DNA of 43,877 bases from an uncultured Lachnospiraceae bacterium. GTDB taxonomy: Bacteria; Bacillota; Clostridia; Lachnospirales; Lachnospiraceae. The position numbers and the translations under genes were made by a program. Below, piece by piece: positions 39,085-39,280 of the stretch. The stretch lies in the NCBI GenBank assembly GCA_900544445.1, contig UQVK01000022.1, forward strand, positions 1 through 43,877, read 5' to 3'. The notes under the pieces were generated by a model. The model was not told the origin of the DNA. It saw only the letters and a list, made by a program, of their open reading frames with translations, and ran no database searches. The first letter of the stretch is position 1; the number at the start of each line of letters is the position of its first letter.

Positions 39085-39280
39085 TACGGTTAGAAATAAG
39101 GGAACGATTTTAATAACCGTATAGATTACTGTAAAAGTACGGTTATATTTGGATTTGATGGGTTTAGAACCGTAGAAATAACCTAAATAATACGGTTAAA
39201 AGTGATCTCTTTGAGTTTTAAACCGTAGTTATGCCCGAAAAAGTACGGTTACGGATGAGGTATTCGGACTTCAAACCGTA
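39085..39280. repeat. Four-unit, 53-bp-period palindromic array (eight TACGGTT half-sites)
   Basis: Each 37-base unit starts TACGGTTA and ends (T/G/A)AACCGTA, at 39085-39121, 39138-39174, 39191-39227 and 39244-39280. Units are separated by exactly 16 bases, giving a strict 53-base period. The 21-base interiors and 16-base spacers are not conserved. The array lies between the purL terminator and a Nudix-GNAT gene, in a region (39063-39422) with no other gene except a possible 12-residue peptide at 39315-39353. Confidence 0.95.

Follow-up and report, generated by a model that had tools for sequence, protein, structure and literature searches.

What keeps a set of DNA palindromes at an exact period when only their short ends are identical, and which protein, if any, reads them? 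The question is raised by a stretch of 43,877 nucleotides from an uncultured Lachnospiraceae bacterium (contig UQVK01000022.1; the whole stretch is called the window here), in which positions 39085-39280 carry an array of four units TACGGTT-N23-AACCGTA, each 37 bp long, with a period of 53 bp and gaps of 16 bp:

39085-39121, no strand assigned: unit 1, TACGGTTA...TAACCGTA, 37 bp
39138-39174, no strand assigned: unit 2, 37 bp, starting 53 bp past the start of unit 1
39191-39227, no strand assigned: unit 3, 37 bp, starting 53 bp past the start of unit 2
39244-39280, no strand assigned: unit 4, 37 bp, starting 53 bp past the start of unit 3
39122-39137, 39175-39190 and 39228-39243 (within 39122-39243), no strand assigned: the 16-bp gaps, identical in the related locus L001 of genome G001

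Our answer is that the array probably belongs, as a representative without a gene, to a family of palindrome arrays in phase with the DNA helix, and is likely bound through its TACGGTT half-sites by a predicted PD-(D/E)XK protein. Directly observed were the array and its geometry, relatives of it in other genera, the position of such arrays upstream of one gene family, the change of half-site with the subfamily of that gene, and a partial co-occurrence of arrays and gene.

The array and its relatives

A recount of the eight identical 7-mers and their positions, and of the lengths of the units (37 bp) and gaps (16 bp), bore out a preliminary description of this DNA exactly. The pattern TACGGTTN{20,26}AACCGTA matched four times in the window, compared to 0.01 matches expected, a number reached in 0 of 100 shuffles, and a scan of the window for 7-mer clusters of this kind found the TACGGTT array as the sole one. 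Pairwise, the unit interiors were identical at 6-11 of 23 positions (mean 8.5, with 6.8 expected from composition), and the half-sites plus one A were the only identical runs of at least 7 bases across the units. Since identity is confined to the 7-8 bp at the unit ends, these are not the near-identical repeats with unique spacers of a CRISPR (clustered regularly interspaced short palindromic repeats) array, as had been noted before. The further suggestion that only the 7-mer and the spacing had been kept stood up for the interiors, which are near chance identity, and not for the gaps, which retain a residual likeness (8-9 of 16 positions identical between any two, versus 5.2 expected). The nearest genome compared was G001, very likely that of an uncultured Eisenbergiella from chicken (24% of sampled 31-mers), and its near-identical locus L001 kept both the array and the 53-bp period, with 54 of 56 half-site bases, 83 of 92 interior bases and 48 of 48 gap bases the same. 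At this short distance the gaps are conserved as well as the half-sites, and the sole altered half-site is the reverse one of unit 3.

Within the genus, the pattern TACGGTTN{22,24}AACCGTA was counted in 13 members, which gave 130 units in G005, 114 in G007, 52 in G010, 7 in G001, 2 in G009 and none in the other eight, compared to 0 or 1 in a backwards control. The array counts are probably too low, as metagenome-assembled genomes break at these repeats. G001 contains three arrays, the one at the window locus and two more. Nine of 397 genomes from the same bacterial family, belonging to 8 of the 334 sampled genera including that of the window, contained the stricter pattern TACGGTTN{22,24}AACCGTAN{14,17}ACGG, and its backwards control gave 0. 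In the eight array genomes outside the genus (seven genera), up to nine units were present, mostly 51-53 bp or multiples thereof apart, with one 59-bp spacing in G375, and both the interiors and the neighbouring genes were unrelated to those of the window. Neither free drift of the 7-mers or their spacing nor confinement to one strain, which the preliminary description had named as signs against its reading, was seen in the related genomes searched. Profiles of nine unit groups shared a low-resolution pattern, with no statistic attached, in which A/T-rich stretches recur about every 8-9 bp, close to each end and to the middle of the interior.

The spacing of the units follows the DNA helix. 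Among 224 consecutive dyad spacings below 90 bp, 223 lay within 2 bp of 53, 63.5, 74 or 84.5 bp, where the 62-63 class is mostly one position in copies of one repeat, leaving fewer independent spacings than 224. Likewise, the periods of 36 arrays from different subfamilies of the gene described below were 51-54 bp (28 arrays), 61-64 bp (5) or 71-75 bp (3), with none between, and thus fall close to whole numbers of helical turns (5, 6 or 7), the 71-bp case corresponding to 6.8 turns. Half-site changes were one-sided in 301 cases versus two-sided in 23, and 10 of these 23 were still complementary, which is near the one third expected by chance. Because the changes are uncompensated and the spacings helix-quantised, we infer that each half-site is recognised on duplex DNA with rotational phasing. 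RNA stems were rejected as main explanation on account of the uncompensated changes, and the same evidence argues against a cruciform constraint. The preliminary description had offered a cooperative protein-binding platform or a set of RNA hairpins, with a leaning towards a DNA role; the two lines of evidence together favour the platform, and the uncompensated deviations speak against the hairpins.

A nuclease-like gene family beside the arrays

The recurring neighbour of arrays is a gene for a protein of about 264 amino acids, whose family, here called the partner, is unnamed in Pfam and NCBIfam. Its C-terminal half matches the PADLOC profile PDC-S68 (PDC-S68/S69 listed) and is PD-(D/E)XK-like, and E161, D192 and E207, invariant in 52 sequences, may be the catalytic acidic residues. 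The partner thus resembles, and is predicted to be, a PD-(D/E)XK nuclease, and differs from Tn7 TnsA, Vsr and other PD-(D/E)XK nucleases by an extra N-terminal ~130 residues. Judged by its matches (2568 reported, at least 120 listed; 124 of the 397 family genomes), it is a common, unnamed gene family. The matches listed include proteins of Blautia sp. An46 and Lachnospiraceae bacterium KGMB03038, and the L233 and P0012 proteins are examples from the TACGGTT subfamily. Searching sequences of solved structures gave 0 matches, Pfam on 52 members gave weak, scattered matches only (the commonest, RecX_HTH1, in 6 of 52), and no DNA-binding match to the N-terminal half stood out among the matches listed. 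The N-terminal domain may be similar to three-stranded arm-type DNA-binding domains. In viral contigs no relative of the partner was confirmed, and six plasmid records held partial C-terminal matches.

To quantify the linkage, we scanned up to 800-900 bp on each side of the gene for any 7-mer palindrome repeated at a constant period of 40-80 bp. The loci comprised 50 from the bacterial family (30 returned by the search and 20 more distant ones hand-picked from the match list) and 29 from a class-wide search in which 24 of 391 genomes matched; being the best matches with a locus returned plus the hand-picked genes, they are not a random sample. Upstream stretches shorter than 120 bp score zero by construction, and 8 of the 79 were below 300 bp. 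Arrays of at least three units were found upstream of the gene at 22 of 50 family and 15 of 29 class loci, versus 0 of 79 shuffled upstream stretches, and downstream at 1 of 50 and 2 of 29. The 79 loci represent 78 distinct genes (L324 is the same gene as L287; L319, which repeats L250, was left out), and removing the duplicate leaves 36 of 78 genes with an upstream array, of 3-12 units, and 2 of 78 with a downstream one. The last upstream unit ends 44-589 bp before the gene. An earlier scan with the period fixed at 51-55 bp and at least two units gave 27 of 50 upstream and 1 of 50 downstream. In G005, G007 and G010, one gene per genome is preceded by 8-10 TACGGTT units. The arrays next to the gene at L275 (12 units), L286 (10-11), L279 (9, period 75) and L290 (9, period 62) are striking for their near-perfect periods and subfamily-specific half-sites.

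Arrays and gene also co-occur in part. In the genus, the partner gene was present in exactly the four genomes with at least seven units (4 of 4 versus 0 of 9, kinship uncorrected), and in the bacterial family a partner-gene match was present in 8 of 9 array genomes versus 116 of 388 others (kinship uncorrected). Six of these eight are the six best-scoring genomes, a ranking that favours relatives of G050, the one among them from which the query was taken. The next two genomes by score (ranks 7 and 8), G099 and G119, have no match to the strict pattern, but three TTACGGT units precede the gene of G099, and that of G119 begins at the end of a contig. Two genomes are exceptions: G357 has arrays and G009, within the genus, has one array, and no partner gene was found in either.

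The upstream position of the arrays recalls type III toxin-antitoxin systems (ToxIN-like), in which tandem near-identical RNA repeats precede a gene for a nuclease-type toxin of the ToxN/AbiQ fold. Transcribed hairpin arrays, serving for example as a sponge or antitoxin-like RNA against the nuclease-like protein encoded downstream, would account for this position and for the near-identical units of some gene-adjacent arrays such as L275. As RNA, the window array folds better than shuffles (z -3.6), as expected of any palindrome set, and 52-nt repeats of B. coagulans have been reported to be transcribed (PMC8625621). The interiors of the window units differ from one another, unlike those of the near-identical gene-adjacent arrays, and no ToxN model was among the PADLOC models at E up to 0.1 on the partner. 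However, the half-site changes are not compensated, the spacings track the DNA helix even where they jump, by about 10 or 21 bp, and the partner gene was present in only 4 of the 62 stretches examined around arrays and array matches (L116-L158, L226-L244). Rfam gave no match past its cut-off in 38900-39500, only a sub-threshold microRNA match. The partner is also predicted to be of another fold class, and arrays occur without the gene too. We consider an RNA role unlikely.

The half-site changes with the partner subfamily, and includes TACGGTT, TACGATT, TACGTAT, TACGTGT, GTTGACT, GTGACCG, CCCGACT, GCATGCA and others. For 36 arrays with half-sites extracted by script, half-site similarity correlated with N-terminal identity (Spearman 0.17, a value reached in 18 of 1000 permutations), and no such correlation was seen with C-terminal identity (Spearman 0.06, reached in 215 of 1000). 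The five pairs with more than 65% N-terminal identity had on average 6.4 of 7 half-site bases in common, compared to 3.0 for 419 pairs at 20-35% and 2.7 for random 7-mers. Because half-site similarity follows N-terminal rather than C-terminal identity, these sequence comparisons, weak overall, point to the N-terminal domain as the half-site reader. G007 carries a second copy of the gene (L302, G007:C167), syntenic with the G001 gene, whose upstream repeats, read by eye, are CTACGGTA...TACCCGTAG, suggesting private sites for paralogues within one genome. The GTTGACT half-site matched in two of the 397 genomes, both with the partner gene family, too few for a test.

Two further observations concern half-sites. 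The arrays L226 and L230 occupy corresponding positions in two species of the same genus, and their half-site variants have changed in concert over several units (TACGGTT/TACGGCT to TACGGGT, with CCGTT ends), a pattern that resembles exchange of units within an array. At L311 (G217:C23:8897-9410), ten GTTGACT units stand at exactly 53 bp, apart from the gene-adjacent array of the same genome, and no partner gene was among the open reading frames (ORFs) listed around it.

The constant period could also reflect sites for chromosome organisation, on which a structural protein of the host polymerises, with the nuclease gene a passenger. The A/T-rich stretches along the units agree with this, as does the proposal of Subirana and Messeguer of a protein that needs a constant repeat size to polymerise (PMC8161180). 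Against it, half-sites change with the nuclease-like subfamily and follow, if weakly, the N-terminal domain, and arrays are unevenly distributed among closely related species and missing from orthologous loci, making such nucleoid sites improbable.

If the partner does bind the arrays, as we favour, two copies would occupy one unit, with 30 bp between half-site starts, each half-site being read by an N-terminal domain. Units 53 bp, or five turns, apart would bring every bound copy to the same side of the helix and allow cooperative assembly. The protein is predicted to assemble along the array near its own gene, for autoregulation or sequestration, and on solitary arrays like that of the window. 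By analogy with REP palindromes and their RAYT transposase (see below), array and gene may form a self-maintaining or mobile unit, in which the nuclease domain would have as its target the DNA of bound arrays or close to them, and solitary arrays would be non-autonomous copies, kept or spread by a protein encoded elsewhere in the genome. Spread or maintenance of arrays is our first choice, by analogy, for the putative nuclease role, the alternatives being defence by a sequestered nuclease and chromosome organisation.

Mobile-element-like carriers and the window locus

Many arrays in G005, G007 and G010 are carried by a repeat of about 120-520 bp with ends GTTACTTTTCAYGGGG, which resembles a miniature inverted-repeat transposable element (MITE; e.g. 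L152:3069-3560 and L154:3633-4148). Stretches from G005 and G007 contained 34 array clusters, of which 23 were treated as six-unit arrays and used for a six-unit consensus, several others being cut by contig ends. In these two genomes the six-unit arrays are embedded in a repeat of about 500 bp that has GTTACTTTTCAYGGGG as its terminal inverted repeats and was also found in G010. Of 13 end-pairs examined, three had 8-bp flanks equal within one base versus 0.27 expected from shuffled flanks, where the maximum over 1000 shuffles was also three and two of the three matching copies lack a half-site. One further copy showed a 9-bp flanking duplication. Since 23 six-unit arrays lie in an element with terminal inverted repeats, some copies of which have flanking duplications, transport as cargo of a MITE-like element is one way in which arrays spread. 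All end-pairs seen were less than 530 bp apart.

Could the arrays then be purely selfish, MITE-like cargo with no present function and no binding protein? The 23 carried arrays and the 8-9 bp duplications in a minority of copies would fit, and yet the same half-site and period recur in seven other genera with unrelated neighbours, the gene linkage is left unexplained, and no match to the MITE ends within 3 mismatches was found anywhere in the window. We rate this reading as rather improbable, and the last result also led us to reject a MITE with GTTACTTTTCA ends as the home of the window array. Origin from a phage or plasmid was likewise rejected: there was no blastn match, and the strict geometry had 0 matches in viral contigs, compared to 55 loose matches of other geometry. 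Viral contigs such as L018, L021, L029, L040, L059 and others hold dense AACCGTA/TACGGTT or CGTACCA clusters of other geometry, which are possibly replication-origin repeats. Other dispersed hairpin repeats surround arrays in the flanks of L126, L129, L130 and L123, e.g. GCATCCGGCCATTCCAATCGC...GGGCCGGATGC and CGTTACTGTTCTGCCGAAGGCTGAACAGTAACG.

In the window, the array lies between the following features:

35090-39013, plus strand: long ORF, labelled purL in the preliminary description
39021-39063, plus strand: hairpin-like AAAGGGTCATGC...GCATGACCTTTT after purL, read from the sequence
39423-40358, plus strand: NUDIX and GNAT-acetyltransferase gene, downstream of the array
40379-41098, plus strand: LytTR-type response regulator, a neighbour whose use of the array is not supported
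41095-42438, plus strand: GHKL-type sensor kinase, a neighbour

A simple consensus scan for promoters and terminators listed no terminator at the hairpin-like stretch. Positions 39423-43737 form a putative operon, in which the NUDIX-GNAT, LytTR regulator and GHKL kinase genes are accompanied by an ORF whose start resembles that of a lipoprotein. The 3' end of the purL ORF is the upstream neighbour at this locus also in G001, G005, G006, G007 and G009, and in the last four the gap between purL and NUDIX has a similar hairpin-like stretch and no array. The stretches examined from these four genomes have no LytTR pair beside the NUDIX gene either.

This neighbourhood had suggested the flanking two-component system as a candidate user of the array, and a multi-site operator of the LytTR pair or of the NUDIX operon would fit the position of the array upstream of these genes, the resemblance of ACGGTT to LytTR half-sites pointed out in the preliminary description, and the joint absence of array and LytTR pair in the sister stretches. 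Because both are missing there, synteny at the purL-NUDIX locus cannot separate this explanation from others. In G020 (L312, G020:C33), a two-unit GTTGACT array also has another regulator-kinase pair as its neighbour, a response regulator of Spo0A type with a GHKL kinase. LytTR operators, such as those of AgrA and HdrR (PMC4227749, PMC6193735), share with the array an ACnGTT-like core and a LytTR gene nearby. However, their sites are direct repeats of 9-12-9 bp, i.e. about 9 bp separated by 11-13 bp and thus about 21 bp apart (PMC6193735), whereas the half-sites here are inverted and 30 bp apart, with no second forward copy 20-23 bp on. No LytTR regulator was recognised by eye, with no family search, among the ORF starts beside other arrays, where the recurring neighbour is the nuclease-like gene, and two genomes with more than 100 units are unlikely for the operator of one operon. 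With the wrong geometry, and the array absent at the NUDIX loci of four sister genomes, we rejected a LytTR operator as main explanation, and an operator of either kind seems very improbable.

Known repeat systems and implications

The closest described class is that of the 52-nt satellites of Bacillus and other Firmicutes, for which Subirana and Messeguer reported a constant period of 52 nt, variable sequence and short conserved signals, often with their reverse, and suggested a polymerising protein or an RNA role (PMC8161180). They also stated that evidence is lacking for a Cas-like protein with a specific interaction with these repeats (PMC8161180). Shared features are the ~52-nt period, variable sequence, signals with their reverse, non-coding position, occurrence in Firmicutes and patchiness between strains (PMC8161180). 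Genomes of the class, among which those of Bacillus and Paenibacillus include repeat-rich ones, have several arrays each (PMC8161180), and three were counted in G001, the nearest genome to the window. The repeat size of the class, 51-53, compares with 53 bp in the window and mostly 51-54 in its relatives, and the four intergenic units give the minimum of four non-coding, variable repeats with conserved signals and their reverse. By these tests the window array fits the published class. Different here are the linked gene family, the widely spaced half-sites and the presence, next to genes of this family, of further arrays with periods of 61-64 and 71-75 bp.

A second comparison is with repetitive extragenic palindromes (REP) and bacterial interspersed mosaic elements (BIME), dispersed palindromes of which some lie beside a gene for a REP-associated tyrosine transposase (RAYT) while other copies are presumed non-autonomous. 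The arrays are alike in being dispersed intergenic palindromes with few copies beside one gene family and presumed non-autonomous copies elsewhere, and differ in their strict helical period and in a partner that is PD-(D/E)XK-like by profile. REP palindromes carry a GTAG or CGTC tag at one end (PMC3733652), whereas the window units read TACGGTTA...AACCGTA. The gene beside the arrays encodes a nuclease-like protein, and no search aimed at RAYT (Y1 tyrosine transposase) was made.

Among the papers listed by our literature searches, none was seen to link such arrays to a gene or nuclease. New here are the linked gene family, the relation between half-site and subfamily, and the longer-period arrays beside the same gene. 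It is conceivable, if still short of probable, that these belong to a two-part chromosomal module, in which a site-specific PD-(D/E)XK protein forms a one-faced filament on its own palindrome array at 5, 6 or 7 turns, with a private half-site per subfamily, seeds and keeps further arrays elsewhere in the genome, and so explains the 52-nt satellites of Firmicutes.

The partner would be a first candidate protein for these bacterial 52-base satellites, which have been described as enigmatic and with no partner protein (PMC8161180). With a gene family that has half-sites of its own in each subfamily, the satellite question can be tested using a single protein and a single DNA of 200 bp. If binding is confirmed, the family would provide DNA readers that are orthogonal to one another and carry predicted nuclease domains, together with an array geometry that is one-faced and quantised by the helix, and a common, unnamed gene family would be identified as a chromosomal module of gut bacteria.
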